Virus record (IMG/VR): IMGVR_UViG_3300000553_000326
Location: 3,455 to 24,560 of that record
Length of the DNA stretch: 21,106 nt
DNA from: a virus
Direction: 5' to 3' (one strand)
The notes under the pieces were generated by a model. That model worked only from the letters and a program-made list of their open reading frames with translations, made no database searches and had not been told where the DNA came from. This document shows positions 2,040-21,106 of this stretch, piece by piece. Within the stretch, counting starts at the first letter, position 1. Each line of letters starts with the position of its first letter. Position numbers and translations under genes: made by a program.

Positions 2040-2052
2040 AAGGAGGTTCTCC

Positions 2053-2235
2053 ATGCCTACCGTCAAGAAGTCTGGGTCCTTCAAGGGTAAGAGCAACAAG
2101 CTCGGGTACGGCGGACGGTCCGCTCAGCTCAAGGCGGCAGGGGTCCCCGGTGGGGTCATCGGGAACCTCGCCCGTAAGGCCCAAGCAGCCCCCGGCCAGA
2201 AGAACTACCACGGCAAGAAGAAGGGCGGTAAGTGA
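2053..2235 (+). CDS. Small basic Lys/Gly-rich protein, function unknown
   Basis: 60 residues, strongly basic, opening MPTVKKSGSFKGKSNKLGYG and ending in KKKGGK. A perfect AGGAGG at 2041-2046, six bases before the ATG, fixes the start and predicts strong expression. The stop overlaps the holin start (TGATG). The composition suggests nucleic-acid or acidic-protein binding, for example a minor DNA-associated virion protein, but there is no motif to prove it. It lies in the late rightward block between the beta-rich small protein and the holin. Confidence 0.7.
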   Translation: MPTVKKSGSFKGKSNKLGYGGRSAQLKAAGVPGGVIGNLARKAQAAPGQKNYHGKKKGGK

Positions 2236-2774: not shown

Positions 2775-2777
2775 TTA

Positions 2778-6169: not shown

Positions 6170-6170
6170 G

Positions 6171-6908
6171 TTACTTTGCCTCCGGGGGATTCATCCCCTT
6201 CTTCTGAAGATCCTTCCTGTACCAGCGCACGTAGCCACGCTTCGACTCGTCGAGGCCGAACTTGGCCTGGACCTTCTCGAAGATCTTGTCGTCGGAGAGC
6301 TTCCCCTCCATGATGAGGTCACAGAACATCTTGCTGGCCGTGAGCTTCTTCTCGCCCGACGGCTTGTGGGTCTCGGTCACCTTGGTGGGGGTAGCTGTCG
6401 GCTTCCCACCCTTGAAGGGGGCCTTCTCAGCCTTGGGCTCAGGCTGCTTCTTGGCGGTGGCCTTAGCCACGACCTTCTTCGTGGTGGCCGCATCTTCGTT
6501 GGCCTTCTTGCGGTTCGTCGCCATGGCGACCTCCTGTGAAGTGATCTTGGTGAAGTTGCCTAGGAAGGTCATCACCTCGGTGGTAGCCCCTATCTCAACT
6601 GCGTACCGGGCATAAACCGCGGCTCCCCGAGAGAGGCTGTGGTTGGGGACGGTCCTGAAGCGTTCAGTGAACTGAGCGGTGCTGGTGGAGCAAATACAGA
6701 GCCCAGACTCAGTCTCAAGTGGGATGAACTTGGTGATGCTTTCATCCTGGCTCACCACAAGACACGTGCGCTGCTCGTGGTCGAAGCAGAAGCGGGTCTG
6801 ATGCTTGACGTCGTCGGCCAGGATCTCCTTGGGCTTCCCAGGTGGGACCCCCGCAGGCAGCTTCTTGGCCACCACGGTGGTGGGTTTCTTTGAGGCAGGT
6901 TTCGCCAT
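6171..6908 (-). CDS. Unknown two-part protein with C-terminal domain shared with the 18152-18577 gene; internal start likely
   Basis: 245 residues, function not recognised. An N-terminal beta-rich part (~28-120) is followed by a Lys/Ala/Pro/Thr-rich linker (~130-190) and a ~45-residue C-terminal helical domain (192-237; KLSDDKIFEKV then YVRWYRKDLQKKG). That domain is clearly similar to the end of the protein at 18152-18577. Met129 (base 6524) is preceded by a perfect AGGAGG five bases upstream inside the coding sequence, so a 117-residue product (linker plus domain) is probably made as well. The main start at 6908 follows GAGGAG and a good promoter at 6931-6958. It heads the transcript that continues through the HNH gene into the nucleotide module. 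Confidence 0.75.
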   Translation of the reverse strand: MAKPASKKPTTVVAKKLPAGVPPGKPKEILADDVKHQTRFCFDHEQRTCLVVSQDESITKFIPLETESGLCICSTSTAQFTERFRTVPNHSLSRGAAVYARYAVEIGATTEVMTFLGNFTKITSQEVAMATNRKKANEDAATTKKVVAKATAKKQPEPKAEKAPFKGGKPTATPTKVTETHKPSGEKKLTASKMFCDLIMEGKLSDDKIFEKVQAKFGLDESKRGYVRWYRKDLQKKGMNPPEAK

Positions 6909-6930
6909 GGTTGCTCCTCGGTATATCTAA

Positions 6931-6958
6931 ATTATAGGCCCACAGCTGACTCTGTAAA
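6931..6958 (-). promoter_or_regulatory. Sigma-70-type promoter for the 6908-to-2778 operon
   Basis: On the minus strand, TTTACA (6953-6958), a 16-base spacer and TATAAT (6931-6936, preceded by GGCC) precede the ATG at 6908. This has the same geometry and -10 context as the promoters at 13331, 18829 and 18992. Confidence 0.8.
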
Positions 6959-6961
6959 CTG

Positions 6962-8452: not shown

Positions 8453-8687
8453 CATGCACCTCAATCTGATACCCGAGCTTCTTCAACTTCTTATGGATGT
8501 GAGTCTGGATCTTCCGTGGCTCTTCACCCACCCGCTTGAACTCGATGAGAAAAGGGCGACCTCCTGGAAGCCAGAAGAGACGATCGGGGAAACCAATCTT
8601 ACCCTTCACGTTAAGTTTCAGGTTCTCAACCCCCAGCTCATCAAGGATCCGCTGACAGGCGTCAGTCTCGATAATGCTCTCTAACAC
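8379..8687 (-). CDS. VRR-NUC domain nuclease
   Basis: 102 residues, essentially only the VRR-NUC domain: FPDRLFWLPGGRP (33-45), IEFKR (48-52, the catalytic E-x-K) and PRKIQTHIHKKLKKLGY followed by VEVHD-like IEVHD. Such stand-alone domains act as structure-specific or junction-resolving nucleases in phages. The start is taken as GTG 8687, with a perfect GGAGG five bases upstream; longer readings from GTG 8717 or TTG 8747 lack a ribosome site. The first 26 coding bases overlap the zinc-ribbon gene and the last 74 overlap the helicase gene, so all three are tightly coupled. Confidence 0.85.
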   Translation of the reverse strand: MLESIIETDACQRILDELGVENLKLNVKGKIGFPDRLFWLPGGRPFLIEFKRVGEEPRKIQTHIHKKLKKLGYQIEVHDDVESAFRAVQRALEAAQVPKNRG

Positions 8688-8859
8688 GGTCGCCTCCGGG
8701 CGGCGGGCATTGGTCACACAAAAACTGTGTCGGTGCCGAACCGCCAAGAAAGGTCACCATAAAAAACAAGTCACCAGGGGTTATGGCTGTTCGGCACGTC
8801 CTACAAATTCTAGTCACGTGCTTTGATCTTAGATACCTAACCATTCGATATGGCGACAT
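8662..8859 (-). CDS. Small zinc-ribbon protein
   Basis: 65 residues with paired cysteines C19-x2-C22 and C48-x2-C51 (ICRTC and LCDQC) framing a beta-hairpin-like segment, typical of a zinc ribbon. Function is unknown. The ATG at 8859 lies one base after the stop of the PD-(D/E)XK gene; its ribosome site is weak, so coupling to the upstream gene is likely. A start at 8844 is also possible. The gene lies between two nuclease genes, consistent with an accessory role in DNA metabolism (inference). Confidence 0.6.
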   Translation of the reverse strand: MSPYRMVRYLRSKHVTRICRTCRTAITPGDLFFMVTFLGGSAPTQFLCDQCPPPGGDRVREHYRD

Positions 8860-8860
8860 C

Positions 8861-9574
8861 TTAGAACTTGCACCTTCCGCCCTTGCTCTTAGCGTGCGGG
8901 CACCAGCGACAGTAATCTCCAGGCCGTGGAGCAAAGAAGCGGTCCCCCATCATGGGCATCACCTTGGCGGCCCACTCCTTCTTCAGGGCCTCCACATCCT
9001 TGCGGAAGTAGACGAGCTTGACGAGTTCACCCTGGTCAAGGTACCAGAACTCCGCCTCGACCTCGTCGATTAGGGGGTACTTGCTGAAGGCCGCCAGGGC
9101 GTAGAGGCTCAACTGCTCCCTGGACTCCTCGCGCACCTTCCCGGTCTTGTAGTCCACGATCTTCAGCATGCTGCAGGACCCCGGCCCGATGTCCTTCCGC
9201 GTCTTGGTGTGAGGCGCCTTGTCAGTGATGTAATAGGCGTCGACGACGACCCGGACCCAGCAGTCCTTGCTGAACCATTCCACGGGTCTCCACTGACTAT
9301 CAAAGGCCCACTGTGCCTCGGTTTTCACCTCCTGCTTGAGCAGATGGGTGAACTCCTTTTTGAAGAGCTTCAGCCGGTCAGGCAGCACCTTCAACTTCTT
9401 GGTGACAAACTCCTCAGCCTGGGTGTGAGCCTCATGGCCACCCACTAGAGCAGGACCTTCCGGCTCAGCCACCTTGTCGAGGTAGACGAGCTTGGCACGG
9501 AAGGGGCACTTACGGTAGTTGTTGAGGCGGGAGAAGCTCCAGGCCACAAACTTCTTGATGGGCTTAGTCGGCAC
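8861..9574 (-). CDS. PD-(D/E)XK nuclease, Cas4/RecB-like, with probable Fe-S cysteines
   Basis: 237 residues. It opens AWSFSRLNNYRKCPF, the usual start of PDDEXK_1/AddB-Cas4 nucleases. The core has Asp112 (VVVDAYY) and IVDYKTGK (139-146; D141-x-K143), then Gln154 of the QxxxY-type motif (EQLSLY). Cys23 together with Cys222, Cys225 and Cys235 (YCRWC...GGRC) would hold a 4Fe-4S cluster, as in Cas4 and AddB. No CRISPR genes are present, so this is the phage replication/recombination exonuclease type. The GTG start follows AAAGGAGG by five bases and overlaps the polymerase gene by 11 bases. Confidence 0.88.
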   Translation of the reverse strand: MPTKPIKKFVAWSFSRLNNYRKCPFRAKLVYLDKVAEPEGPALVGGHEAHTQAEEFVTKKLKVLPDRLKLFKKEFTHLLKQEVKTEAQWAFDSQWRPVEWFSKDCWVRVVVDAYYITDKAPHTKTRKDIGPGSCSMLKIVDYKTGKVREESREQLSLYALAAFSKYPLIDEVEAEFWYLDQGELVKLVYFRKDVEALKKEWAAKVMPMMGDRFFAPRPGDYCRWCPHAKSKGGRCKF

Positions 9575-11513
9575 GCCGACCTCCTTTGTCGTAGGTCTTC
9601 AGGGTCGACCAGTTGGTCGGGGTGGTCTTGCCCTCAGAGAGCATAGGGACACCAAACTTGATGCCGTCCATCGCCTCCTGGAGGAGCCGCATGCCGAAGT
9701 CAACCTCGTCCTTGGGGCACATGACCAGGAGCTCATCATGGACCGTGAGGAGCAGCTGGTGGCTGGCAGGCTTAGCGGCCCAGTAGCGGATGACGGCCTC
9801 CTTGGTGCAGTCAGCGGCTGACCCCTGGATGAGGACGTTCAGCATCTTGTAGTCGAAGTGGCGGAGCTGGCCGTCGATGACCTTGGGTGGCTCGCAGTAA
9901 TAGACCCGTCCACCCCACGTCCGGATGGGCTCGTCGGCCTTGGCCCGCCGTTTCATCTCGCCGTACATGTCCCGAAGCCCGGGGAAGATGGCCAAATAGG
10001 CGTCCTTTACCCGCTTCGCCTCATCCACCGTGATGTCGGACTTCAGGGCGAGTTTCCCAATCCCCATGCCGTAGATCAGACCGAAACCTGTGTTCTTGAC
10101 CGGCTTTCTGGCCTCGTCGTGGGTCTGGCCGGGGAAGAGGCCATAGTCGGCCTGCAGCATGGTGGTGGCGAAATCATGCACGTCCAACCAGGGATTCTCC
10201 TCGTAGGCTTCCCTGAGAACCCCATCCTCAAAGTGGCCGAGGATCCGTAGCTCCTGCTGGCTGTAGTCGCGGTCAAGCAGCACCATACCTGGGCGTGCGG
10301 CCACGTAGGACCTGACCTGAGGGAGCGGCTGGAGGTCGAGGGGTGCCACCGGGAGCAGCTTGGCCTTCGTTGGGTTGAGCTCCTCGTGACGGAAGATCGG
10401 CTTGAACTCCTTGGGGATGTTCTGGAAGTTGGGGGTCGACGACAGCCGACCTGTCCGGGTCCCCACCGAGCCACCAGAGTCAGTGGCACGGGTCTGGTTC
10501 CACTGGGTGTAGATGACCCCGCCGGATTGCTGAGCGGTCTTCAACCAGGGCATCATGAAGGTCTTGAGGCAGGTGCCGAGTTGGGTCCGGTGCTTCAGCA
10601 TGCCCAACAACACCCGGTCGGTGACGGCGATGTCCAAGCTATCCTTGTCCGTTTTCCACTGGCCCTTGGGGGTCTTGCCCAGCATGACTGGGTCGACCTT
10701 CTTGCTGTTGACCAGGGCCTCCACGAGCTGGTCCCCGCTGTCCAGGTTGAACCCAGGGTCCTTGATCTTGAGCCGCCTGAGGATCCACTCAGTCAGAACG
10801 TCGCGTTGGCGGTTGTAATTCTCCACGTCCTGCGCCAGGCGCTCAAGGTCGACCGGTACCCCGTCCCGTTCCATCTGCAGGAGGATGGGGAGCATCTGAC
10901 GCTCGCGATCATAGGCCTCTGCCATACCAGCGTCGAGCACCCGCTTGTGGAGCAGCTTGAAGAGCTTCTCGGTCCGCTCGGTGTCGCCATTCGCATAGGT
11001 GCCGACGAGATCACCTGGGGCGTAGGCGATGTAGGCGCCTGATGGGTGCTCGGATTTGTAGGATCTGCTGATCTTGATACCAGTCACCGGTTGATTCGCT
11101 ACGAGCCAGTCGGCCACGGCGTCCTGCTCGTCAGGCGGGAGGTTGAGGAGCCGCTCGGCCGCTGGTTTCAGGGCCTGGGCCTCGTGAGGCTCATTCAAAA
11201 ACAGCAGGAAGAGGGTGTCATGAATCCGGTCCCACGGCAGCATGGGCAGGCCCAGGTGGGTCTCAGCAACATCGAGGTCGAACTTGGCGTTGTGGAACAG
11301 GACCCCATCGGGGTGTTCCCACACCTCACGTAGGGCGGCGATGGCGTCGTCGACCCCGCAGTTGTTCTTGGTGGGATGGCCCCAGGCGTAGTAGCGGGCC
11401 TTCTGGCCGAAGGTCTTGATGCTCACCCCGACCGGCACTGGCGGGTAGACCGGGCGACCCTCGATCTTGAACGACTCGAAGTCCACCGTGGGTGGCTTGG
11501 GCACCTTAGCCAT
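9564..11513 (-). CDS. Family A DNA polymerase with 3'-5' exonuclease domain
   Basis: 649 residues from ATG 11513. The exonuclease domain has VDFESF (D11/E13), FHNAKFDLD (~73-81) and YANGDTE (~173-179). The polymerase domain has motif A LLDRDYSQQELR (~412-423, catalytic Asp416), motif B RKPVKNTGFGLIYG (~469-482, keeping Lys, Phe and Tyr) and motif C LTVHDELL (~589-596, Asp593). There is no 5'-3' exonuclease domain, as usual for phage replicases of the T7 gp5 class. The start overlaps the upstream gene's stop by 8 bases; a GTG at 11531 would add six residues but has no better ribosome site. It is followed immediately by the nuclease genes, forming the replication core. Confidence 0.95.
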   Translation of the reverse strand: MAKVPKPPTVDFESFKIEGRPVYPPVPVGVSIKTFGQKARYYAWGHPTKNNCGVDDAIAALREVWEHPDGVLFHNAKFDLDVAETHLGLPMLPWDRIHDTLFLLFLNEPHEAQALKPAAERLLNLPPDEQDAVADWLVANQPVTGIKISRSYKSEHPSGAYIAYAPGDLVGTYANGDTERTEKLFKLLHKRVLDAGMAEAYDRERQMLPILLQMERDGVPVDLERLAQDVENYNRQRDVLTEWILRRLKIKDPGFNLDSGDQLVEALVNSKKVDPVMLGKTPKGQWKTDKDSLDIAVTDRVLLGMLKHRTQLGTCLKTFMMPWLKTAQQSGGVIYTQWNQTRATDSGGSVGTRTGRLSSTPNFQNIPKEFKPIFRHEELNPTKAKLLPVAPLDLQPLPQVRSYVAARPGMVLLDRDYSQQELRILGHFEDGVLREAYEENPWLDVHDFATTMLQADYGLFPGQTHDEARKPVKNTGFGLIYGMGIGKLALKSDITVDEAKRVKDAYLAIFPGLRDMYGEMKRRAKADEPIRTWGGRVYYCEPPKVIDGQLRHFDYKMLNVLIQGSAADCTKEAVIRYWAAKPASHQLLLTVHDELLVMCPKDEVDFGMRLLQEAMDGIKFGVPMLSEGKTTPTNWSTLKTYDKGGRRAD

Positions 11514-11703
11514 TGAGGGCCCCACGCTCACGATCCGCCCGGAGCTTGTTGATACGGCTGTAGATCCGGTTGAGGAATGTCACCCGCTTCTCACCGGCTT
11601 GCTCCATGGCGAGCAGCAGCCGGGCGAGCTTCTCGTCCCCATTCATCAGGGCGTCATTCAAACTGGCCCAGTTCCTCAGCATGTTTTGGGTTGCTACTTT
11701 CAT
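11506..11703 (-). CDS. Small phage protein of unknown function
   Basis: 65 residues, largely helical and charged (NGDEKLARLLLAMEQAGEKR, then FLNRIYSRINKLRADRER). ATG 11703 follows AAGGAGG by four bases, which decides it over an in-frame ATG at 11721. It sits between a stable hairpin and the DNA polymerase gene, with which it overlaps by 8 bases. The C-terminal helix is basic and could contact DNA or the polymerase, but I do not recognise the family with certainty. Confidence 0.68.
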   Translation of the reverse strand: MKVATQNMLRNWASLNDALMNGDEKLARLLLAMEQAGEKRVTFLNRIYSRINKLRADRERGALNG

Positions 11704-11727
11704 CCTACCTCCTTGGTTCACTCAATC

Positions 11728-11749
11728 GAGGGGACCCGAAGGTCCCCTC
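11728..11749 (-). terminator. UUCG-capped hairpin between the SSB-like and polymerase-side genes
   Basis: A perfect 9-bp stem (GAGGGGACC with GGTCCCCTC) whose minus-strand loop is the exceptionally stable TTCG tetraloop. No T-run follows in the leftward direction, so it may be an RNA-processing or mRNA-stability element, or a weak attenuator, rather than a classical terminator. Confidence 0.55.
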
Positions 11750-11761
11750 TGTTCAATGAAC

Positions 11762-12568
11762 TTAGAACCGGCTCTTGCCAGCAGGCTTCTTGGGCAGCGG
11801 CTTCTTGCCCTTGGCTTGGGGCTTGGGCTCCGCCGACGCCTCGAATGGCACGTAGGGGAACATGATGCTGTCAGCCGCTTCCTTGTGGCGGGCGATGATG
11901 GTGGCCCCCAGCTTGTCCGGGATCTTGCTTAGGACCTCGAAGCTGACGGTGAACTGGTTGTCATCGTCGGGGTTGAGCTTGATCTTGGTGAAGATGCCGT
12001 AGGGGGGACGACACAGGGCGGACGCCACCTGCTTGACGAAGGCTGCATACGCCTTAGTCGACGTGACGGGGATCTTCAGGTAGGCGATCTGGTTCTTCTC
12101 GAACTGCTCGGGGTCATGCATCTCGAACCGGCCGTCCTTGTCCAAGGTGCCAGCGCTGATGACGGCGAGCCGACGGATGTTACGGCAGGCCTTCCCACGG
12201 CCACGCTCAGCGGAGCCCCACTCGTTCTGGGGGCAGCCGTGGCAGGTGGCACACTGCTTGTCGACAACGATGTCGTGAGGCGCCAGCTCCTTCTCATCTC
12301 GGCCGAAGGCGAAGCACGTGGGCCCCTGCGGGTTGTCGGCGTCAAAGGCGGACTCGAAGAAGATGTTCTCGAGCACGTGATCGAGAATGACGACGGCCAT
12401 CTCGTCGTTGGGGAGGCGGTTGTCGTTGAAGGACAGGCGCCCACCCTTGGTGCTGAAGAAGTTGCCACTGGCCGTGGACTCCTCCATCTTGGCGGCAACT
12501 TGGGCATCCTTGGCGAGCTGCTCGTCCCAGGTGTTGAGTTGTGTGGTTTCAGCGGGCTTGCGGGCCAT
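11762..12568 (-). CDS. Putative single-stranded DNA-binding protein with Cys cluster
   Basis: 268 residues. A beta-rich central region carries a cysteine cluster: Cys106-x2-Cys109-x2-Cys112 (CATCHGC), NEWGSAERGRGKAC (Cys128), plus Cys85. Phage proteins with this WGSA...GKAC pattern are often found beside DNA polymerase genes and annotated as replication or ssDNA-binding candidates. The C-terminus is a low-complexity Pro/Lys tail rather than the acidic tail of classical SSB. AAGGAG lies five bases before the ATG. Position next to the polymerase supports the role; the assignment is by context and memory of the family, not by a diagnostic OB-fold motif. Confidence 0.55.
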   Translation of the reverse strand: MARKPAETTQLNTWDEQLAKDAQVAAKMEESTASGNFFSTKGGRLSFNDNRLPNDEMAVVILDHVLENIFFESAFDADNPQGPTCFAFGRDEKELAPHDIVVDKQCATCHGCPQNEWGSAERGRGKACRNIRRLAVISAGTLDKDGRFEMHDPEQFEKNQIAYLKIPVTSTKAYAAFVKQVASALCRPPYGIFTKIKLNPDDDNQFTVSFEVLSKIPDKLGATIIARHKEAADSIMFPYVPFEASAEPKPQAKGKKPLPKKPAGKSRF

Positions 12569-12599
12569 AAGGGCTCCTTGGTGTGAGGTGTCAGACGTC

Positions 12600-12677
12600 C
12601 TAGAAACCGCTAGGCCGGTGGTGCCACCGACCCAGGCGGGCGCGGTGGGTGAGGAAGCAGGGGACGAAGGTGAACAT
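12600..12677 (-). CDS. Possible 25-residue basic peptide
   Basis: A short frame with ATG two bases after the upstream stop and AAGGTG five bases before it. It encodes a basic, aromatic peptide (MFTFVPCFLTHRARLGRW...). It is the only candidate gene in the 111-base gap between 12568 and 12680. The ribosome site is part of the end of the upstream gene, so chance is possible. Confidence 0.3.
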   Translation of the reverse strand: MFTFVPCFLTHRARLGRWHHRPSGF

Positions 12678-12679
12678 GG

Positions 12680-13078
12680 TCACACCTTGTTCAGGCTGAT
12701 GGACTTGTACTTGAACTCCTCGATGCCAGGGACGACCTTGCCGGCCTCCCACAGCTCGTAGATGCCCTCGGGGCTGCATGATTTGGTAAGTAGGTCGAGG
12801 CGCTTGTTCTTGATGCAGTATTTCACGAAGGCCTCGAAGTCCTTGACCTCCGGTCGGCTTTTCTGCACGATGGTGACCCGGGCGAGCTTGCCAGTGGCCC
12901 CAGTGGCCTCGGACTTGGGTAGGGTGTCGATGATGTAGGTCTTGAGGGCCGTCTCCTCCGCCTTGATCTCGAGAACAGTCTTGTTCTCGACCAGGCGCTT
13001 AGCCTTGAGGGTGTAGAGGAGGTCGGCGCAGAGACCGATCTGCTTGGGAAACTTGTAGGTCTTCTTGACGGTGGCCAT
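12680..13078 (-). CDS. Conserved-type phage protein near replication genes, function unknown
   Basis: 132 residues. A helical N-terminal half (CADLLYTLKAKRLVENKTVL then EETALKTYIIDTLPKSEATG) is followed by a strand-rich stretch and an end with GKVVPGIEEFKYKSISLNKV. From memory, proteins with this LPKS-x-A-TG and K-x-VPG pattern recur next to the ssDNA-binding and polymerase genes of podovirus-like phages, without known function. AAGGAG lies six bases before the ATG. The upstream gene ends 3 bases before it, so it is in the same transcript driven from the 13331 promoter. Confidence 0.72.
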   Translation of the reverse strand: MATVKKTYKFPKQIGLCADLLYTLKAKRLVENKTVLEIKAEETALKTYIIDTLPKSEATGATGKLARVTIVQKSRPEVKDFEAFVKYCIKNKRLDLLTKSCSPEGIYELWEAGKVVPGIEEFKYKSISLNKV

Positions 13079-13080
13079 GG

Positions 13081-13287
13081 TCAGCTCCTTCCTTCATCTT
13101 CGAGGGCACACTCGAGGTAGTAAGTCATGTCCTCGGTGCGGAGCATGCCGCTGTCACCGTGGCACACCGTGCAATCGGCTGAGTACGAGTCGACGAACTC
13201 ACCGCAGTCACGGCAGAAGTTGGGGTGTTCCATCGTGTCGATGGCTTCTTGGATCTCAGCGGATGGCCGCTTGGTGAGGTTGGACAT
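13081..13287 (-). CDS. Small acidic zinc-ribbon protein
   Basis: 68 residues with Cys25-x2-Cys28 (CRDC) and Cys39-x2-Cys42 (CTVC), a minimal zinc-binding pair, followed by an acidic tail (YYLECALEDEG). Function is unknown. It is the first gene after the promoter at 13331-13358; AGGAG lies five bases before the ATG. A single-domain adaptor or inhibitor of a host protein is one possibility for such an operon-leading small protein, but nothing in the sequence proves it. Confidence 0.65.
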   Translation of the reverse strand: MSNLTKRPSAEIQEAIDTMEHPNFCRDCGEFVDSYSADCTVCHGDSGMLRTEDMTYYLECALEDEGRS

Positions 13288-13330
13288 ATAGGCTCCTGTG
13301 AGGTGAAAGGTGTGAGTGGCTACAAGATCA

Positions 13331-13358
13331 ATTATAGGCCTGGCTGGTCAATTGTAAA
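13331..13358 (-). promoter_or_regulatory. Sigma-70-type promoter for the 13287-leftward operon
   Basis: Minus-strand TTTACA (13353-13358), a 16-base spacer and TATAAT (13331-13336, preceded by GGCC). The bases upstream of -35 (GAAAATAGGGG) are identical to those of the rightward promoter at 18992. It overlaps almost the end of the J-domain gene and is followed by a leader containing CACTCACACCT. Confidence 0.82.
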
Positions 13359-13372
13359 CCCCTATTTTCGAT

Positions 13373-13642
13373 CTATTTTTTCTTGCAACCTCGCGGGCAG
13401 AGCACCTTGAGGGCAAAGAATCCATGGACATGGTCCACGTAGCCCTTGCCGCCACAGACTGGGCAAGCCTTGGTCGAGACGTAGTCGAGGGCCCTCAGGT
13501 AGGCCTCATGGGTCTGCTGGAAGACCACAGGATCCCCACCCAGGTCGGGGTGGAGCTCCTGCGCCCTTCCCCGCCACCAAGCCTTGACCTCGTACTCGGA
13601 GGCTGTGTTAGGGAGCCCAACGGCATCAAGTGGGGTCGGCAT
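13373..13642 (-). CDS. J-domain (DnaJ-like) protein with zinc-binding tail
   Basis: 89 residues. The first ~55 form a compact J-domain: AWWRGRAQELHPDLGGD with the HPD tripeptide at 31-33, then a helix with FQQTHEAYLRAL. A single CxxCxGxG-type zinc motif (CPVCGGKG, 60-67) pairs with CPRGC (82-86). J-domains stimulate DnaK ATPase, so the protein probably recruits the host chaperone, for example to remodel replication or virion proteins. ATG 13642 overlaps the upstream zinc-ribbon gene by 17 bases and gives a normal J-domain N-terminus; no strong ribosome site is seen. The stop lies beside the -35 region of the next promoter. Confidence 0.82.
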   Translation of the reverse strand: MPTPLDAVGLPNTASEYEVKAWWRGRAQELHPDLGGDPVVFQQTHEAYLRALDYVSTKACPVCGGKGYVDHVHGFFALKVLCPRGCKKK

Positions 13643-13850
13643 GTTCGCAGAACTGCGTCTGGTCCTTGGGCTCACCCAGGACCTCACCATTGGGGTCCAC
13701 CCACGCCATGAACTTCGCGACGCAGATGGTGCAGAGCTGCTGGCTGCTGTACTCGGTGGGGAGCCCCTTGATGTCGAACCAGCCGATGGGGAGGCTCAGC
13801 TTGCTGATGGGTTGGGTGGAGCCGCAGCGGTCACACTTAGCGATGAGCAT
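13626..13850 (-). CDS. Small zinc-ribbon protein
   Basis: 74 residues with Cys6-x2-Cys9 (CDRCG) and Cys40-x2-Cys43 (CTIC), plus Cys68 and His70 near the end. The fold is likely a zinc ribbon or rubredoxin-like knuckle; function is unknown. The ATG lies one base after the stop of the preceding gene (TGAcATG) and the stop overlaps the J-domain gene, so translation of the three is probably coupled. The ribosome site is weak, in keeping with coupling. Confidence 0.65.
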   Translation of the reverse strand: MLIAKCDRCGSTQPISKLSLPIGWFDIKGLPTEYSSQQLCTICVAKFMAWVDPNGEVLGEPKDQTQFCEHADPT

Positions 13851-13851
13851 G

Positions 13852-14076
13852 TCAAACCGCCACGTCCTGCTTGACCAGCAGTTGGTTGACGAACTCGAGT
13901 AGGTCGGCCTTGGCGGTGGGGATCTCGGTGGCATCGATGGAGACGTCCTTCTTCTTGAGGCCGAAGGTAGCCATGAGGACCTCCCTCGTCTCACGGGCGT
14001 CAGCGTTGGTTCCGGCGAAGCGGTGACCCTTGCTACGGCCGTCCTTGCCAATGGCCTTCACGATGTAGCACTTCAT
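13852..14076 (-). CDS. Small phage protein of unknown function
   Basis: 74 residues. It opens with a strand (MKCYIVKAIGKDG) and RFAGTNADARETREVLMATF, then KKKDVSIDATEIPTAKADLL and a terminal helix, an alpha/beta arrangement. I recall similar short proteins in other phages without function. GGAG lies within CAGGAG, five bases before the ATG. A perfect 13-bp inverted repeat precedes it at 14095-14147. Confidence 0.65.
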   Translation of the reverse strand: MKCYIVKAIGKDGRSKGHRFAGTNADARETREVLMATFGLKKKDVSIDATEIPTAKADLLEFVNQLLVKQDVAV

Positions 14077-14094
14077 GTCTGCTCCTGAATGAAA

Positions 14095-14147
14095 CCACTG
14101 GGGTGCTGAGCCGAGAAGGATGCCCAGGTCGATTAGCACCCCAGTGG
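14095..14147. repeat. Perfect 13-bp inverted repeat, 27-base loop
   Basis: CCACTGGGGTGCT (14095-14107) and AGCACCCCAGTGG (14135-14147) are exact reverse complements. The element lies between two leftward genes and ends about 18 bases before the next start codon region. There is no T-run, so it is more likely an mRNA-stability, processing or protein-binding element than a terminator. Confidence 0.75.
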
Positions 14148-14175
14148 GTGGCAGCCGTTGCCGCCTGGTGAAGGG

Positions 14176-14349
14176 CTACTCGACGGCCTTGACAGGGGTC
14201 GCAGCGGTGAGCTTAGCGGTCAGCTTCTCGAGCTTCACGCGGAGTTTGTCAGCGGCCTTGAGGTGGGTGCTGGCGAGCTTGTCAGCGGCCTTCAGCTCAG
14301 CGGCCAAGGCCTTCACTTCGGTTTTGAGGGCTTTCACATCGACGGCCAT
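14176..14349 (-). CDS. Small Ala/Lys/Leu coiled-coil protein
   Basis: 57 residues made almost only of Ala, Lys, Leu, Glu, Val and Thr. Internal repeats (LAAELKAADKLAS, HLKAADKLRVK, KLEKLTAKL) predict a single long helix or coiled coil; the net charge is slightly positive. Function is unknown; DNA or protein scaffolding is possible. AAGGAGG lies four bases before the ATG, indicating strong expression. A TATAAT box lies 46 bases upstream of the start. Confidence 0.7.
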   Translation of the reverse strand: MAVDVKALKTEVKALAAELKAADKLASTHLKAADKLRVKLEKLTAKLTAATPVKAVE

Positions 14350-14394
14350 GAGGCCTCCTTGTTGACTACGGGCACGGCCCGCGGGGTTAAGAGA

Positions 14395-14404
14395 ATTATA
14401 GACC
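14395..14404 (-). promoter_or_regulatory. Possible weak or activator-dependent promoter (-10 only)
   Basis: Minus-strand GGTCTATAAT matches the extended -10 of the four good promoters in this window, but at 16 bases upstream only AAATAA is found in place of TTTACA. It lies just before the coiled-coil gene, at the end of the primase-helicase gene. Confidence 0.45.
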
Positions 14405-14416
14405 AATTGAAACTGA

Positions 14417-16525
14417 TTATTTATGAATTGTCTTCAAGTATTTTTGGGCTCGGTCCTGACGGGCCGCTGCCCAGATCTCCTGATTGGCGATGGCGAAGTA
14501 ACGTGACCTCGACCCGCTGGAATCCGCAATCACCATGTCCCTGCAGGCCTTCACAGCCCCCACCTCCTTGAGGGTGTTGTTGATGGCCGCCAGGGAAGGG
14601 GCCTTACCGCTCAGGTTGTTGTAGGCGAGGTAATGGGCCAGCACCTGCTTGGTCGTCATGAGGTCACACTGGGTCCAGCCCCGCATGCAGGCCGCCGTAG
14701 GGTCCTCGAGCAACAGGCGGCACCAGGCACCCAGGTCGGACTCGGTGGCGGTGATCATGTGCACCTTGGCCTGGGTCCTTGGTGGGTCTGCGTAGGGGTT
14801 GAAGCCACGGACATCGACCTCGAGCAGGTGGTGGAAGAGGGCCGGCCCTGACTGCTCGTCAGCGAGCCAGTCCGCTAGGGTGTCGTAGAACTCCCGGCTG
14901 GCGGGGGTCCTAGGTCCTTCCACCACGAAGAACCGGCGGTCGTCCGCGTCTAGCTTGAAGGCGTCTGCCTCGTTCGAGGCAAACATGAGGTTCGCCTTGG
15001 CGGGGATTTCGTACTCTGGCACATACTTCTCATTGACGGTCGTCACATTCCGGGTCACGATGTCCTTGAGGGCCGCCGCGTACTGCCGTTGGTCAGCGTG
15101 GTCGGTCCCCGTGGCCTCGTCCCCGAAGATGAACTGCTTACGCACCTCCCAGCCGTTGAAGTTGCTCTTGAGCTGCTGCTGGGTGATCTTGCCGTAGTTC
15201 TTCCCGTAGATGAGGCTCATGGCCTTCGCCAACTGGCCCTTGCCGATGCCCTGCCGGCCGTGGAGGATGACCGCTGAGTTCATCTTGGTCCCTGGCACCT
15301 GGACGGGGTAGGCGAGCCACTGCATGAACCACTTGGCCTCGTCGGGCTCGATGTGTTGGGTCATGAACTTGAAAAGCTCCAGGAACGGCTTGACGTCCCC
15401 TGCCACCGGGTGGCATCCCCAGCCGGGCCAGACGTTCCACTCGCCGTAGTCGTCCCCGACCCGCTGGATGAGCTTGCCCTCGCCTGGCTCATAGGTCAGG
15501 CGGCTCACCTCGTGCCTGAGCGGCCAGTCCAGCCAGTGCTTGGCAGCCTTGATCTGCTTCCTGACCAGCTCCCCATTCTTATCGAGCTCGACGGCATAGC
15601 AGTAGCGATTCGACTCAAGGGCACCGGTGAACTTATCCCGGTCCACGAGCTTCACCACGTCAGGCGAATGCAGCACCAGGACGGTCGAGGTGTCACGCAC
15701 GAAGGCATAGCGCTGGTTCAGCTCCCATAGGGACGTGGTGTAGCCGAAGAAGTTGGCTGTGACCAGCAGGTCCTCGAGGGTCTGCTTCCCATCAGGCAGG
15801 AGGAGCAGGTCATCGAGCCCCACCTTGGCGCCGTCTGAGGGGATGAAGGCGGTCTTCACGATGGCCCCACGCTGGGCAAGGAGGTCGGCCAGGTCGTTGA
15901 CAGCGGCCGCCACCGAGGTGTTGGTTTTCAGGTCAGAGTCGAAGATGATCGTCACGACCCGCCGGGCCCACTCGACCAGCTGGAGGCTGGGGAGGAACGG
16001 GCACCCGAACCGCTGGCTCTTGGTCGACCACACGCCACCGAGGCCGATCGTGAGGAACCCCTCCTTGCAGGCCTTCGCCGCCTTAAGTTCCCCTTCAGTG
16101 ATAATGAGCGGCACCGTGTGGTCGTGGAGGATCGTGGCCCAATCGACGTTGGCGGGGAAGTAAGCGGCGGGCGGTAGGTCGGTAGGACCCAGGTAGCTGC
16201 ACGGGTCCTTGCCGGGGCTGCCGTCGAAGCCCTTGGGTGGTGGCCCGAGGTGGCGGACGCGGCTGGCTGGTGGAAGCCCAGGGGCGTGGCGGAGGGGTTC
16301 ACCGGTGGCCGGGTGCAGGTAGTTGAAGAGCAGGACGGGGCGGGGGTCCTTGTGGGCGCCGTACTCCTCAGGCAGACGATTGTGCTCACGGACCTCGACA
16401 GCGAGGCTGGCTGCGTCCCCCAGGGTGAGGCCCGACGACCTGAGCTTGGCCTCCGCCAGGTCGACGAGCTCGGGGCGGGCATTAGCAAAAGGCTTGGATG
16501 AAGCGGGCTTGTTACTCACCGCCAT
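14417..16525 (-). CDS. Primase-helicase: TOPRIM-like domain plus SF3/D5-type helicase
   Basis: 702 residues. The N-terminal third includes a TOPRIM-like fold (DUF3854 type): PLIITEGELKAAKAC with Glu145 and VTIIFDSDLKTN with Asp196 and Asp198. A linker leads to a helicase domain with Walker A GRQGIGKG (423-430), Walker B FIFGDEA (465-471) and an SF3-like sensor region (NLMFASNEADAF, DDRRFFVV). The C-terminal ~100 residues resemble a small winged-helix region. Together this is a common phage replicative primase-helicase. Zinc-binding primase cysteines are not evident, so primer synthesis is inferred rather than certain. The ATG overlaps the HTH gene by 14 bases. Confidence 0.85.
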   Translation of the reverse strand: MAVSNKPASSKPFANARPELVDLAEAKLRSSGLTLGDAASLAVEVREHNRLPEEYGAHKDPRPVLLFNYLHPATGEPLRHAPGLPPASRVRHLGPPPKGFDGSPGKDPCSYLGPTDLPPAAYFPANVDWATILHDHTVPLIITEGELKAAKACKEGFLTIGLGGVWSTKSQRFGCPFLPSLQLVEWARRVVTIIFDSDLKTNTSVAAAVNDLADLLAQRGAIVKTAFIPSDGAKVGLDDLLLLPDGKQTLEDLLVTANFFGYTTSLWELNQRYAFVRDTSTVLVLHSPDVVKLVDRDKFTGALESNRYCYAVELDKNGELVRKQIKAAKHWLDWPLRHEVSRLTYEPGEGKLIQRVGDDYGEWNVWPGWGCHPVAGDVKPFLELFKFMTQHIEPDEAKWFMQWLAYPVQVPGTKMNSAVILHGRQGIGKGQLAKAMSLIYGKNYGKITQQQLKSNFNGWEVRKQFIFGDEATGTDHADQRQYAAALKDIVTRNVTTVNEKYVPEYEIPAKANLMFASNEADAFKLDADDRRFFVVEGPRTPASREFYDTLADWLADEQSGPALFHHLLEVDVRGFNPYADPPRTQAKVHMITATESDLGAWCRLLLEDPTAACMRGWTQCDLMTTKQVLAHYLAYNNLSGKAPSLAAINNTLKEVGAVKACRDMVIADSSGSRSRYFAIANQEIWAAARQDRAQKYLKTIHK

Positions 16526-16871
16526 GGACCACCCGCCCGCGGGTCACCTCAACCTGGACCCCGTCGACAACGTGCTTGAACTTGCCACCACCCATGGCGA
16601 AGTACTGCCGGACCGTCGAGAGGCTGAGGCCCAGGGCCCTTGCCAGCTGCTCGTAGGTCTCGATGAACTGAGGCTCCCCGGTAGGGTCCCCGAAGCCATC
16701 GAGCCTGAAGACCCGGAAGATCTGACCACGTCGATAGTGGTCCCACCGGGCCTTGACGGCGGGGTTGTCCTTCCCCCGCTTGGGGTGGGGAGTGCTGATC
16801 CGCGCGCGGGGCGGGTCCTCGGTGAAGTCCTCAGCGGTGATGATTACCACCTGGGTCGGTTCGTCGGGCAT
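16512..16871 (-). CDS. Helix-turn-helix protein, probable DNA-binding
   Basis: 119 residues. Residues ~70-92 (IETYEQLARALGLSLSTVRQYF) form a clear helix-turn-helix, followed by a small wing-like strand pair (KHVVDGVQVEVTRG). The N-terminal half is basic (HPKRGKDNPAVKARWDHYRR). It may be a regulator or a replication initiator/loader, since its stop overlaps the primase-helicase start. GAGG lies six bases before the ATG. A poor promoter-like pair (TTGCCG, TACGAT) upstream was not called. Confidence 0.65.
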   Translation of the reverse strand: MPDEPTQVVIITAEDFTEDPPRARISTPHPKRGKDNPAVKARWDHYRRGQIFRVFRLDGFGDPTGEPQFIETYEQLARALGLSLSTVRQYFAMGGGKFKHVVDGVQVEVTRGRVVHGGE

Positions 16872-16921
16872 AGGTTACCTCGGGGTCTTGATCGTACTGT
16901 AGAAGGGTTGGCACCGGCAAA

Positions 16922-17140
16922 TCATTTTTTAGGAAGGAGGCCACAGTCGCAGATCCACCCGGTGTGGGGCCTTACCCAGGACTTATGAAGGTTGCAATCG
17001 GGCTTGTGGACCCGACCTGCTCGGGCACACTCGTAGCACGTGGCGAGGTAGTTGTTGTCTCCGGGCTTGACGACCTGGCAGTAGCGGCAGAAGGTGGTCA
17101 TGGTGATCTTACCACGACGGTCTGGGTTCATGAAAGTCAT
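16922..17140 (-). CDS. Small Cys-rich (zinc-binding) protein, start uncertain
   Basis: 72 residues from ATG 17140, or 59 from ATG 17101. There are four cysteine groups: FCRYC, TCYEC, DCNLH and ICDCG, enough for two zinc knuckles. The longer start has AAGG six bases upstream and is preferred; an ATG at 17214 is also in frame. Function is unknown. It lies between the HTH gene and a zinc-ribbon gene among short early genes. Confidence 0.55.
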   Translation of the reverse strand: MTFMNPDRRGKITMTTFCRYCQVVKPGDNNYLATCYECARAGRVHKPDCNLHKSWVRPHTGWICDCGLLPKK

Positions 17141-17255
17141 CAATGACCTTAGGTAAGGTGGCTGATTATGGACATTGGTGGTTTGAGTGGCTGGGCGGCG
17201 GCTTCCCGTCATCGTGCCCACTTGCGCCGGTTGGTCGGACCACTCTTGGACAGCC

Positions 17256-17432
17256 TCACTCGGCTGCTTTGACTTCGACGGTGTGAGAAAAATCGTAGAT
17301 GTTGGTCCAGGTCGCCCCGCAGTTCTCGCACTCGGCTTCCTGGTAGACGTTCCGGTCCTCATCCAAAGCAGGACGATGGAGGTCCAGGTCAGTCCCGCCA
17401 CAGAGGGGGCATTGTTTGATGCCTTGGGTCAT
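17256..17432 (-). CDS. Small zinc-ribbon protein
   Basis: 58 residues with CPLCGG (Cys8/Cys11) and CENCGATW (Cys35/Cys38), the classic zinc ribbon of transcription-related and phage accessory proteins (as in Lar/restriction-alleviation-like small proteins, though I cannot assign that). ATG 17432 has GGAGG upstream with a short spacer. It is followed by a 115-base stretch with no better gene than the upstream extension of the next Cys-rich frame. Confidence 0.65.
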   Translation of the reverse strand: MTQGIKQCPLCGGTDLDLHRPALDEDRNVYQEAECENCGATWTNIYDFSHTVEVKAAE

Positions 17433-18769: not shown

Positions 18770-18828
18770 GGGGGCTCCTGCAAGGTGTGAGGTGGAAGGT
18801 GTGAGTGGTGTTGCTTGCTACATCTACT

Positions 18829-18856
18829 ATTATAGGTCTGTCGTGGTCCTTGTAAA
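18829..18856 (-). promoter_or_regulatory. Leftward early promoter
   Basis: Minus-strand TTTACA (18851-18856), a 16-base spacer and TATAAT (18829-18834, preceded by GACC). The transcript begins with a leader containing GATGTAGCAAG (18814-18824) and CACTCACACCT, shared with the divergent promoter. Confidence 0.85.
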
Positions 18857-18991
18857 CCTTTATTTTCAATCTTTTTTAAAGAATTTGAGTGATTAGAAAG
18901 TGGGCACATTGATACTTGGCCGGGTGACAATGTGGTCTATATCTCTTCCTCGGGGTCCTTCAAACTTTTTGAATTATTTTGAAAATAGGGG

Positions 18992-19019
18992 TTTACAAAT
19001 GGTGTTGGAGGTCTATAAT
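18992..19019 (+). promoter_or_regulatory. Rightward early promoter
   Basis: TTTACA (18992-18997), a 16-base spacer and TATAAT (19014-19019, preceded by GGTC). An A-rich stretch, GAAAATAGGGG, precedes the -35. The leader repeats GATGTAGCAAG (19024-19034) and CACTCACACCT before AAGGAG and the ATG at 19064. Confidence 0.88.
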
Positions 19020-19063
19020 AGAAGATGTAGCAAGTCACTCACACCTCACATCAAGGAGCAAAC

Positions 19064-19357
19064 ATGACCCGCACAAACCTCAACCCCATGGGACCTTGGG
19101 AAGTTGCTGAAGACTTCCACGTACCCGAAGGTTTCTCTGATGGTTCTTGGGAAAATGATTCTTGCCCGTCAGTCTACCACCTCACGACGGAACACTCCAT
19201 CTACTGGGACACTGAGACCCACGCGAACGCGATTCGTGAGGGTTATTATGACGGTTTCTTGTGTGGTCGATTCTGTGTGGTCTCCAATGACACTTACGAG
19301 ACCATCTACAATGGCAACGACCTTCAAGAGGCGATTCGAGTCGCGTCAGTGAAGTAA
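19064..19357 (+). CDS. Small acidic early protein, function unknown
   Basis: 97 residues, acidic, with many aromatics (GPWEVAEDFHVP, IYWDTETHANAIREGYYDGF). There is no TM segment or known motif; it reads as a compact alpha/beta protein. AAGGAG lies five bases before the ATG, about 44 bases after the -10 box of a strong promoter, and a terminator-like hairpin follows at 19376. It is thus a one-gene rightward early transcript, the usual setting for a host-interaction protein or a regulator; no function can be assigned from sequence. Confidence 0.72.
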   Translation: MTRTNLNPMGPWEVAEDFHVPEGFSDGSWENDSCPSVYHLTTEHSIYWDTETHANAIREGYYDGFLCGRFCVVSNDTYETIYNGNDLQEAIRVASVK

Positions 19358-19375
19358 ACCAATGTGTGGTTGCTG

Positions 19376-19410
19376 AGGACCGAGGTCGTTTGATCTTGGT
19401 CCTTTGCTTT
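19376..19410 (+). terminator. Rho-independent-type terminator after the rightward early gene
   Basis: AGGACCGAG (19376-19384) pairs with CTTGGTCCT (19395-19403) in a 9-bp stem with one G-T pair and a 10-base loop, followed by TTGCTTT. It lies 19 bases after the stop at 19357. Confidence 0.65.
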
Positions 19411-19438
19411 ATGGTGAGATGGTTCGCTGATGGAAGGA

Positions 19439-19560
19439 AGTTCTATTTAGAACTGAGTTCTGTTTATGGGATGAATGAGGTTCATTGATCTTTGAACTGG
19501 GAACTATGAACTTTGCACCACGCAAAAAGCCAGCAGTTGAGGCAGATAGAACTCAGTTCT
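19439..19560. repeat. AGAACT/AGTTCT palindrome cluster and GAACT heptad repeat
   Basis: AGTTCT (19439-19444), AGAACT (19449-19454) and AGTTCT (19456-19461) form overlapping inverted repeats. The 13-base AGAACTGAGTTCT (19449-19461) recurs in reverse complement as AGAACTCAGTTCT (19548-19560). Between them GAACT occurs at 19494, 19501 and 19508, exactly 7 bases apart. This has the look of operator or iteron sites. Confidence 0.6.
19483..19508 (+). repeat. Degenerate copy of the 26-bp inverted repeat
   Basis: CATTGATC, then 10 bases, then GAACTATG. The left arm is perfect and the right arm has 6 of 8 consensus bases. It overlaps the GAACT heptad repeat, so it may be fortuitous. Confidence 0.4.
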
Positions 19561-19623
19561 AAAAGGCAAGGTTACGTAATGTAACATTCCTGTGAAGTCA
19601 TAACTCAGCACAAAACCTCGTCC

Positions 19624-19649
19624 CATTGACCCTCGCCATTGCTTCAATG
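19624..19649 (+). repeat. 26-bp inverted repeat, copy A
   Basis: CATTGACC, then 10 bases, then CTTCAATG: the same arm and spacer geometry as copy D, with six of eight bases pairing. Confidence 0.65.
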
Positions 19650-19654
19650 CAGCA

Positions 19655-19680
19655 CATAGATCCTAGTGCCAAGATTAATG
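19655..19680 (+). repeat. 26-bp inverted repeat, copy B
   Basis: CATAGATC, then CTAGTGCCAA, then GATTAATG. It begins 31 bases after copy A begins, about three helical turns, and its spacer is nearly that of copy C. Confidence 0.65.
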
Positions 19681-19711
19681 TGATGCATTTGTGATGATTA
19701 TCGCTTCTACT

Positions 19712-19720
19712 TTATACACA
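19712..19720 (+). other. DnaA-box-like sequence beside A+T-rich tract
   Basis: TTATACACA fits the TTATNCACA consensus exactly and lies next to a stretch of mostly A and T up to about 19915, including a pyrimidine run at ~19811-19847. One box alone is weak evidence of an origin. Confidence 0.35.
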
Positions 19721-20041
19721 ACGCACAGTATTCCTGTGCAAGAATAACCTATACGGCGAAAGGCATTTGATTACAATTTACAATTTTGCACAGCCGTTTT
19801 GCTATTCTTACCCCTTTTTCTATCTCTATCTCTCTTTTTCTTTTTTTACTAGAACTTTTTAAAAGAGATGTGTAAAAGGTAATACCTTCAGTTAAGCCTA
19901 TATATTTAATCAATATGATCCGCACAGACCTTGCACAGCGCATAGAAATCCGCCAGCGTTTCGCCCCGCAAAGTCACACGGAACGTGGCCACCATTGCAT
20001 CTCACCCCATCCTTGGTGCTGTGTGCAATGTAAGAGTAACA

Positions 20042-20093
20042 GGCAGCACTGCCCCAGAGGGTCAGCTCACTGCCCTAATGGGGCAGTGCTGCC
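20042..20093. repeat. 14-bp perfect inverted repeat with a competing internal hairpin
   Basis: GGCAGCACTGCCCC (20042-20055) pairs perfectly with GGGGCAGTGCTGCC (20080-20093) across a 24-base loop. The loop contains a second CACTGCCC (20068-20075) that can pair with GGGCAGTG (20081-20088) in a tight 8-bp hairpin, so the two structures exclude each other. Confidence 0.75.
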
Positions 20094-20126
20094 GTGGGTC
20101 AAGGTGCTGGGTGCCTCGGGCCGCGT

Positions 20127-20136
20127 GGCCTATAAT
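20127..20136 (+). promoter_or_regulatory. Possible -10 element upstream of the terminase gene
   Basis: GGCCTATAAT matches the extended -10 of the strong promoters in this window, but no TTTACA-like -35 lies 16-18 bases upstream. It may need an activator and would drive the terminase transcript. Confidence 0.4.
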
Positions 20137-20170
20137 GAGGGGCGGAGGTCCATGTGCCACGAGCAACGAT

Positions 20171-20196
20171 CATTGATCCTAGTGCTGAGATCAATA
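20171..20196 (+). repeat. 26-bp inverted repeat, copy C
   Basis: CATTGATC, then CTAGTGCTGA, then GATCAATA. Seven bases of each arm pair perfectly. Confidence 0.7.
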
Positions 20197-20355
20197 ATGC
20201 TGTGGCATGGATGGATGAAGCTGAGACTCAGCACCAAGATCATCGTGATAGAACCTCGAGCGAGGCACAATGGTCCTGGGCCCAGCGCGCATTATTGACG
20301 TCTCCGCGTCGTCGAGCCTTTGCCACCGAAAAATGCTGGAGTGCTAAAATCATAC

Positions 20356-20381
20356 CATTGACCCTACCGCCAAGGTCAATG
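20356..20381 (+). repeat. 26-bp inverted repeat, copy D
   Basis: CATTGACC, then CTACCGCCAA, then GGTCAATG. The 8-bp arms pair perfectly; it lies 77 bases before the terminase-like start. Confidence 0.75.
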
Positions 20382-20457
20382 AGCAAGGTGCCAAGAGCAA
20401 AGTTCCACGCGCTCTCCACCAACCCACACCCACCGGCGAGTAAGGAGTAGCCCACTT

Positions 20458-20937
20458 ATGGCCAAGCAACTTCCACCCAAGCCCGAGGTCCTCACCGCTG
20501 AGGTCGTTGAGGTCAACCGTCGGGACCCAGTGACCAACCTCACCGGCCCTGAGGAGGTCTACTGCCTGCAGGTCGTCCGCACCGGCAACTGCTCAGCAGC
20601 TTTCCGCCTGGCCTTTCCCGACCACGTGTGCCTCGAGACCCGCGAGAAGGAAAAGGCAAAGCTCGGCGCCTACCTGCAGCGCCTGAACAAGGACCCCCGG
20701 ATCAAGGCCCGGCTGGAGCAGCTCCGTGAGGTCGTGAGGACCTACACCGGCATCAGCCTCTTCGACCACGTCGCCACCCTGCAGGAGCTGCGTGAGGGTG
20801 CCGTCGGGGCCCAGCAGTTCGGGCCCGCCGTGGCGGCTGAGGTGAGCCGGGGGAAGGTGTCCGGGCTGTACGTCGAGAAGGTCGAGCACTCCGGGGTGGT
20901 CAACATCGTCGCCTCCACCTTCGATGAGGGGCTGTGA
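20458..20937 (+). CDS. Small terminase subunit-like protein
   Basis: 159 residues. The region ~38-60 (EVYCLQVVRTGNCSAAFRLAFPD) matches the N-terminal DNA-binding helix-turn-helix of small terminases, where a TGN-x-x-x-A-[YF]-R-x-A-[YF]-P pattern is usual. It is followed by a long helix (LGAYLQRLNKDPRIKARLEQLREV), consistent with the oligomerisation region. The protein would bind the packaging site and load the large subunit, not seen in this window. AAGGAG lies 10 bases before the ATG. The stop overlaps the next start (TGATG). Position after a repeat-rich region fits, since packaging sites often lie next to this gene. A different HTH protein cannot be excluded. Confidence 0.65.
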   Translation: MAKQLPPKPEVLTAEVVEVNRRDPVTNLTGPEEVYCLQVVRTGNCSAAFRLAFPDHVCLETREKEKAKLGAYLQRLNKDPRIKARLEQLREVVRTYTGISLFDHVATLQELREGAVGAQQFGPAVAAEVSRGKVSGLYVEKVEHSGVVNIVASTFDEGL

Positions 20938-21106
20938 TGGGGGCCCAACGGTCCGCACCGCCCAAGCAGCCAGGCCCGATCCTCAAGGTCGTCAGGGCCA
21001 AGAAGCCCAAGAAGGAGCCGTCGCTCGAGGAGCGGATCGCTGAGCTCAAGCGCCAGGCCCTGCTGAACGCACCACCGCCTCCCCCACCTCCCCCACCTCC
21101 CCCACC
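20937..21106 (+). CDS. 5' part of an unidentified gene, cut by the window end in a proline repeat
   Basis: 56 residues are visible. The N-terminus is basic (ILKVVRAKKPKKEPSLEERI), followed by a helix (AELKRQALLNA) and then at least 11 prolines encoded by tandem CCACCTCCC units. The start overlaps the terminase stop (TGATG). The gene continues past the window. It is not recognisable as a large terminase subunit so far, although a long low-complexity N-terminus before an ATPase domain is possible. Confidence 0.55.
   Translation, partial: MGAQRSAPPKQPGPILKVVRAKKPKKEPSLEERIAELKRQALLNAPPPPPPPPPPP

Follow-up and report, generated by a model that had tools for sequence, protein, structure and literature searches.

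An array of mostly imperfect 26-bp dyads, in seven to eight copies, occupies the stretch separating the early genes from the packaging genes in an environmental phage, and one diverged relative has the same array. The copies are situated between the divergent early promoters as well as in the terminase leader, and this double placement is the new point. The array is a real, conserved, multi-copy set of putative protein-binding sites and as such ordinary in kind, palindromic sites in phage control regions being already familiar as a type of system. Since a distant relative keeps the copies, a protein that coordinates the phage programme probably binds at them. We tentatively read them as operators at which one dimeric regulator, probably encoded by the phage itself, would bind the DNA and control the early promoters and the origin-like/terminase leader, and put the chance of this at somewhat less than even.

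Results

The phage and its gene content

The window, i.e. the whole stretch of DNA that was analysed, comprises bases 3455-24560 (21,106 nt) of the 24,560-base virus record IMGVR_UViG_3300000553_000326. Over the shared stretches tested, this record is more than 99.9% identical to G001 (IMGVR_UViG_3300025779_000009; 38,287 bases). Since G001 starts at the large terminase (TerL) and ends within a CCCCCACCT repeat beyond the small terminase (TerS), it is probably a near-complete genome opened at the repeat. The CCCCCACCT tandem repeat occupies 21072-21106 of the window, at the end of the record, where G000 and G001 both break; the large terminase is where the G001 assembly picks up again.

Gene families for portal, scaffold, coat, head closure and DNA ejection were recognised, as were genes for a primase, a polymerase A, an SNF2-type helicase, a PD-(D/E)XK nuclease and a thymidylate synthase. 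The scanned proteins, which included a part of the small open reading frames, gave no match to an integrase or a repressor. The phage is known from environmental sequence only and its lineage is otherwise unstudied; no DNA match to 18900-21106 was obtained among phage records. The closest TerL relatives in bacterial genomes are those of Polaromonas, Dyella and Rhodanobacter (identity 69-73%), which hints at a proteobacterial host. The region is ordered as follows: the early left genes, the divergent promoters and their sites, a single small early gene, the left site cluster (19388-19680), the origin-like element, the right site cluster (20171-20381) and the terminase operon. The features are collected in Table 1.

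Table 1. Coordinates of the 26-bp sites and of the elements and genes around them (window numbering)
Feature	Position	Strand	Remarks
Candidate binder, 119-aa protein	16512..16871	-	predicted helix-turn-helix; upstream of primase
Early leftward promoter	18829..18856	-	TTTACA-N16-TATAAT, exact hexamers
Site 1	18907..18932	+	between divergent early promoters; pattern match; L006-trained matrix 19.9 bits
Early rightward promoter	18992..19019	+	TTTACA-N16-TATAAT, exact hexamers
Terminator-like hairpin	19375..19404	+	follows gene 19064-19357; overlaps weak site 2 partly; -24.1 kcal/mol, z -5.8
Weak site 2	19388..19413	+	L006 1481 counterpart; 13.6 bits, 15.9 with L006-trained matrix
Site 3	19483..19508	+	L006 1659 counterpart; conserved block 19482-19515
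Site 4	19624..19649	+	pattern match and L006-trained matrix
Site 5	19655..19680	+	31 bp from site 4; pattern match and L006-trained matrix
Iteron-like heptamers TGTGCAA/TTGCACA (four)	19735..20028	.	at 19735, 19786, 19931, 20022
12-mer TACGGCGAAAGG	19752..19763	+	also L006 2143
Pyrimidine/AT-rich tract	19803..19870	+	best conserved leader block, 56.7 bits; origin-like
Site 6	20171..20196	+	pattern match and L006-trained matrix
Site 7	20247..20272	+	L006 2368 counterpart; 21.1 bits, 20.5 with L006-trained matrix
GGGCCCAG...CATTAYTG block	20273..20297	+	conserved; fixed distance from site 7 in both phages
Site 8	20356..20381	+	perfect dyad; pattern match and L006-trained matrix
Small terminase (TerS), 159 aa	20458..20937	+	homologues match phrog_51, PF03592; annotated small terminases among tblastn matches

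Sequence and copy number of the site

A sequence-only reading of this DNA had described a family of 26-bp inverted repeats before the terminase gene. The family proved to be real and its number to have been understated. The pattern CATTGAYC-N10-GRTCAATG was found six times in the window with at most three mismatches (sites 1, 3, 4, 5, 6 and 8), as compared with a mean of 0.35 and a maximum of 2 in 100 shuffles, and a symmetrised weight matrix built from 11 sites of both phages added site 7 and the weak site 2. The next best non-overlapping score in the window was 8.2 and the best in G001 1-17300 was 7.3; a score of 10.6 at 20377 overlaps site 8. Of the 16 specified bases, none is mismatched in site 8, one in site 6, two in each of sites 3, 4 and 5 and three in site 1. 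Site 3, earlier called degenerate, is thus equal to sites 4 and 5, and sites 1 and 7 had been overlooked. The spacer of exactly 10 bases, earlier attributed to four copies, was confirmed in all of them; the arms are imperfect in most copies. When spacers of 6-15 bases were scanned at the same mismatch limit, the window gave six matches at spacer 10 and one at spacer 13 (20171 again), and the relative L006 gave five at spacer 10 and zero at the others.

The consensus dyad consists of 10-bp arms around a 6-bp centre, CATTGATCCT-N6-AGGnTCAATG, its left half-site being the stronger. Since the outer half-sites CATTG/CAATG are 21 bp, i.e. two helical turns, apart, one dimer could contact the two on the same side of the helix. 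The distance of about three helical turns ascribed to sites 4 and 5 agrees with their spacing, and no helical phasing among the sites was found by hand arithmetic. A strict orientation of the sites was not supported: the forward score exceeded the reverse in 7 of 8 window sites and 7 of 9 L006 sites, which is a bias only. Chance origin was rejected on the basis of the shuffles, the spacer scan and the cross-trained matrices described below.

All six pattern matches of the 38,287-base G001 lie in 36109-37583, with no further strong copy. Copies were thus not scattered in the genome-wide scan, and in L006 they are kept while most of the flanking DNA is not, the reverse of what the sequence-only reading had named as evidence against its claim.

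Two further symmetrical elements were noticed in the leader. A second palindrome family, AGAACTNAGTTCT (19449, 19548) and AGTTCTATTTAGAACT (19439), lies at 19439-19461 and 19547-19561; no other copy was found in the 38.3-kb phage record, and AGAACT is absent from the L006 leader. A long imperfect inverted repeat, GGCAGCACTGCCCC...GGGGCAGTGCTGCC, spans 20042-20093 with 24-nt arms that are 83% complementary, and nothing like it was seen by eye in the L006 sequence.

Conservation in the relative L006

L006 (IMGVR_UViG_3300020157_000035) is an 11.2-kb record whose small terminase is about 45% and large terminase 78% identical to those of the phage. The array, the divergent early promoters, the pyrimidine tract and the terminase order all recur in it, with differences in the number and exact positions of the sites and with an extra 61-aa winged-helix-like gene in its early operon. 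Since L006 is a fragment, most of the early genes fall outside the record.

A matrix built from either phage found the sites of the other. With the matrix from six window sites, the nine best matches in L006 (9,092 bases) all fell in 1002-2393, scoring from 23.7 down to 11.2 bits, with a chance expectation per site in 1.65 kb of <0.001 to 0.064. With the matrix from five L006 sites, the nine best window matches all fell in 18907-20402 (24.7 to 12.9 bits), the ninth being the 20377 match on site 8. A 15.2-bit match at L193 1972, among the structural genes of the L006 record, runs contrary to this confinement and was taken as chance.

Local alignment of the 1.1-kb leaders gave only four strong blocks common to both phages, and three of the four contain a site. 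Behind the pyrimidine tract came 19377-19422 (39.4 bits), 19482-19515 (36.3) and 20248-20297 (33.1), the cut-off being the shuffle maximum of 23.7 bits and site-to-site cross matches being set aside; the other alignments were two such cross matches of non-corresponding sites (28.4 bits each) and a shifted match of the pyrimidine tract (26.9). Since the block 19377-19422 also holds the terminator-like hairpin, similar to one at 1467-1499 in L006, its conservation is not creditable to the site alone. In L006 400-510, between two early genes, tandem repeats with GATCCTAGA were observed, and GATCCTAG is common to them and some of the 26-bp sites.

DNA sites, RNA hairpins or coding repeats

The possibility that the copies are hairpins in the leader RNA, acting as regulatory or processing elements, can draw on site 8, which folds well (-8.6 kcal/mol, z -4.5), and on the good terminator-like hairpin. 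In the alignment A5 (14 sites; the weak copies 19388, L006 1446 and L006 1537 excluded), however, the position 4-23 pair is broken in half of the copies, paired cells amount to 76.8% as against 73.4% in shuffles, and the covariation score was reached by 74 of 500 shuffles. Sites 5 and 3 and L006 2332 fold no better than shuffles, most copies fold weakly, and Rfam returned sub-threshold eukaryotic matches only. With no compensatory base changes and weak folding, this reading is largely refuted and was rejected as extremely improbable. The half-sites vary independently, with covariation not above that in shuffles, as would be the case for a protein dimer. Since the arm pairing is not kept by paired changes and the RNA folding is weak, a DNA site read by a protein is favoured.

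A coding repeat was likewise rejected. The IDPSAKIN/IDPTAKVN-like translations of three copies were suggestive, but the codon-position GC is that of non-coding DNA: open reading frames through the site region are without the codon-position signature of the phage genes (GC at position 3 is 0.53 in ORF 20154-20450 vs 0.88 in terS). By reading, these translations are not kept at the L006 sites. The earlier argument had been that the copies lie in different frames. By arithmetic this is partly right: sites 5 and 6 share one frame and sites 3, 4 and 8 another. Its conclusion, DNA sites and not coding repeats, is supported on other grounds, namely the non-coding codon statistics, the paired changes not exceeding those in shuffles and the concentration of leader conservation at the sites.

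Sites at the divergent early promoters

L006, too, has divergent TTTACA-N16-TATAAT promoters (951-924, minus; 1138-1165, plus), and between the promoters there is one site in the window and there are two in L006 (1002-1027 and 1062-1087). By arithmetic, three of the four promoter-site pairs have 50 bp between site and -35 box and one has 59 bp: from site 1 it is 50 bp to the left box and 59 bp to the right box, and the L006 pair is symmetric. The promoter sites lie 1.4 kb upstream, at about 1.5 kb from TerS. Exact early-type promoters with no adjoining site occur at 13358 and 6958 (minus) in the window and at 139 (minus) in L006. A consensus scan of the plus strand of the leader gave no late promoter.

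The promoter region itself, 18813-19037, is an imperfect inverted duplication some 225 bp long. Its axis lies near the 26-bp site, and it was noticed through a sub-threshold Rfam match to a eukaryotic microRNA family. Since the region has this structure, promoter and site were possibly duplicated together, and the early-promoter sites may be partly passengers of the duplication.

Distribution among other phages

Among 30 TerL-anchored loci with upstream DNA, several of them with less than 2.2 kb of it and some near-copies of each other, sites of at least 14 bits were found in L006 alone (seven in 2.2 kb) and 29 had none. Seven of 32 TerL loci (L015, L020, L021, L022, L026, L035 and L037), with little or no upstream DNA or being duplicates, fell outside the 30-locus set. 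Apart from a weak set of unlike repeats in L023, no analogous array with at least three like copies was seen before TerL in 25 relatives. When loci were collected through the phage polymerase, each had, the phage's own record excepted, at most one match with up to three mismatches, and no leader match was found in plasmids.

A widespread mobile element or host motif was rejected on the exact-pattern scan of viral_contigs, where, over 114 stretches, the cluster appeared in the phage's own record only; with at most three mismatches, 79 stretches had one copy, 30 two and 4 three, and the own record alone had six. The TerL, TerS, polymerase and viral_contigs scans thus assign the array, within the DNA searched, to two related phages, and two lineages carrying it were found.

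Three named phages whose primase is related (L206, L207, L208) had no sites above 14 bits at their loci. Pseudoxanthomonas phage PW916 (L206 8006-8143) and Stenotrophomonas phage AXL_3 (L208 2-134) have in common a long inverted repeat upstream of the primase, with arms of 34-37 nt about 65 nt apart, which is a different candidate control element.

Discussion

The sequence-only reading had offered three roles for the copies: recognition by the small terminase in packaging, replication initiation, or a repressor operator. A regulator operator fits best of the three, since there are further sites in the interval of the divergent early promoters. Repeated imperfect dyads with a fixed half-site spacing are found both at the early promoters and before the late genes, in the terminase leader, and a dimeric regulator is favoured because it would account for the sites at the early promoters, where none would be expected from packaging or from a compact origin. 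With rising amounts, the protein would occupy the early and leader sites, possibly joined by looping; this occupancy would lower early transcription and open the terminase and late side, as in an early-to-late switch. The position around -99 is far upstream for simple repression and counts against the operator reading.

For the binder, the 119-aa protein is a candidate. Its matches to helix-turn-helix families are weak and sub-threshold only, and a low-confidence single-sequence model places a helix-turn-helix and a beta hairpin in residues 69-110, with pLDDT of about 60-78 in the core blocks. The 61-aa candidate of L006, itself resting on weak matches, has no counterpart seen among the window's first early genes.

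Replication initiation stays a candidate, since the two site clusters have the origin-like element between them. An initiator would bind the flanking clusters and melt the pyrimidine/AT-rich, iteron-like region, which holds the best conserved leader block and is placed in the same order in L006. The gap between the clusters also contains TACGGCGAAAGG and the TGTGCAA repeats, with TGCGCA hexamers at the matching place in L006, so that iteron-like repeats stand beside an AT-rich element in non-coding DNA, and SPP1 origins have direct repeats and an AT-rich unwinding element (PMC6316719). The heptamers differ in sequence from the 26-bp sites, no initiator gene was recognised, and the sites between the early promoters lie beyond the origin-like element; we regard the origin as rather unlikely to be what the array serves. 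Packaging, in which TerS would bind the sites and cut nearby in a pac or cosB-like manner, is weakened and appears unlikely. Most sites are directly upstream of the TerS gene in both phages (among them sites 6, 7 and 8 in the window), the spacing from site 7 to GGGCCCAG is identical in both, this block being a possible cleavage site or else promoter element, and in SPP1 both the late promoters and the beginning of gene 1 overlap with pac (PMC6316719). By its homologues, TerS is of the Terminase_2/phrog_51 kind; the nearest structure by profile is the solved Pam5 small terminase (E 1e-6), and its model (N-terminal helices and a C-terminal hairpin, mean pLDDT 65) gave no useful match in a fold search. 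Against packaging, the sites, present with the TerS of L006, are absent (no upstream site of at least 14 bits) at all 10 other TerS-homologue loci, the nearest about equally diverged (L198, approx. 44-46% identical), as well as at the 29 other TerL-anchored loci. The DNA-binding domain of the related SF6 TerS is reported to bind pac DNA non-specifically (PMC4737164), binding domains of pac phages are described as monomeric (PMC4856287), and the early-promoter sites would be left unexplained.

Operator, origin and packaging roles need not be mutually exclusive, as the overlap of pac with late promoters in SPP1 (PMC6316719) suggests. That one phage protein reads the same dyad in three settings, namely the divergent early promoters, the surroundings of the replication origin and the leader of the packaging gene, seems very unlikely to us; if true, a single locus would tie early shut-off, replication and the start of packaging into one nucleoprotein complex. 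The region is a compact, conserved and testable control region, it offers a defined DNA site usable for fishing out the binding protein, and two diverged genomes sufficed to separate DNA sites from protein-coding signal.

No description of the array was recognised in the literature on pac sites with inverted repeats, SPP1, phi29 p4 and terminase-upstream repeats or under the half-site sequence, mostly represented by less than the full text, and divergent phage promoters yielded no paper. As in the lambda cosB R sites and the SPP1 pac, the repeats adjoin the small terminase gene (PMC4856287, PMC6316719); those known sites are close to a mapped cut, whereas here there is a strict dyad, with more copies and a spread to the early promoters. 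The SPP1 oriR and oriL also have repeats adjoining an AT-rich element (PMC6316719), but the gp38 sites are direct repeats and no gp38 homologue was recognised here. The nearest printed mechanism found is that of phi29 p4, and the putative regulator may act in a comparable mode, with no membership of that system claimed. PMC3100819 gives CTTTTT-15 bp-AAAATG as the form of the four imperfect inverted repeats that p4 uses between the early and late promoters; by our arithmetic, the distance of their half-sites is likewise 21 bp, centre to centre. The sequence and the phage type are different, the span here is 1.5 kb and encloses a gene and the origin-like element, and no p4-like protein was found in the phage. 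The p4 sites, found between the early promoters A2c/A2b and the late promoter A3 (PMC3100819), resemble the present array: both comprise several inverted repeats that are imperfect and keep this half-site distance, and in both some of the sites lie between the early promoters and the start of the late genes.
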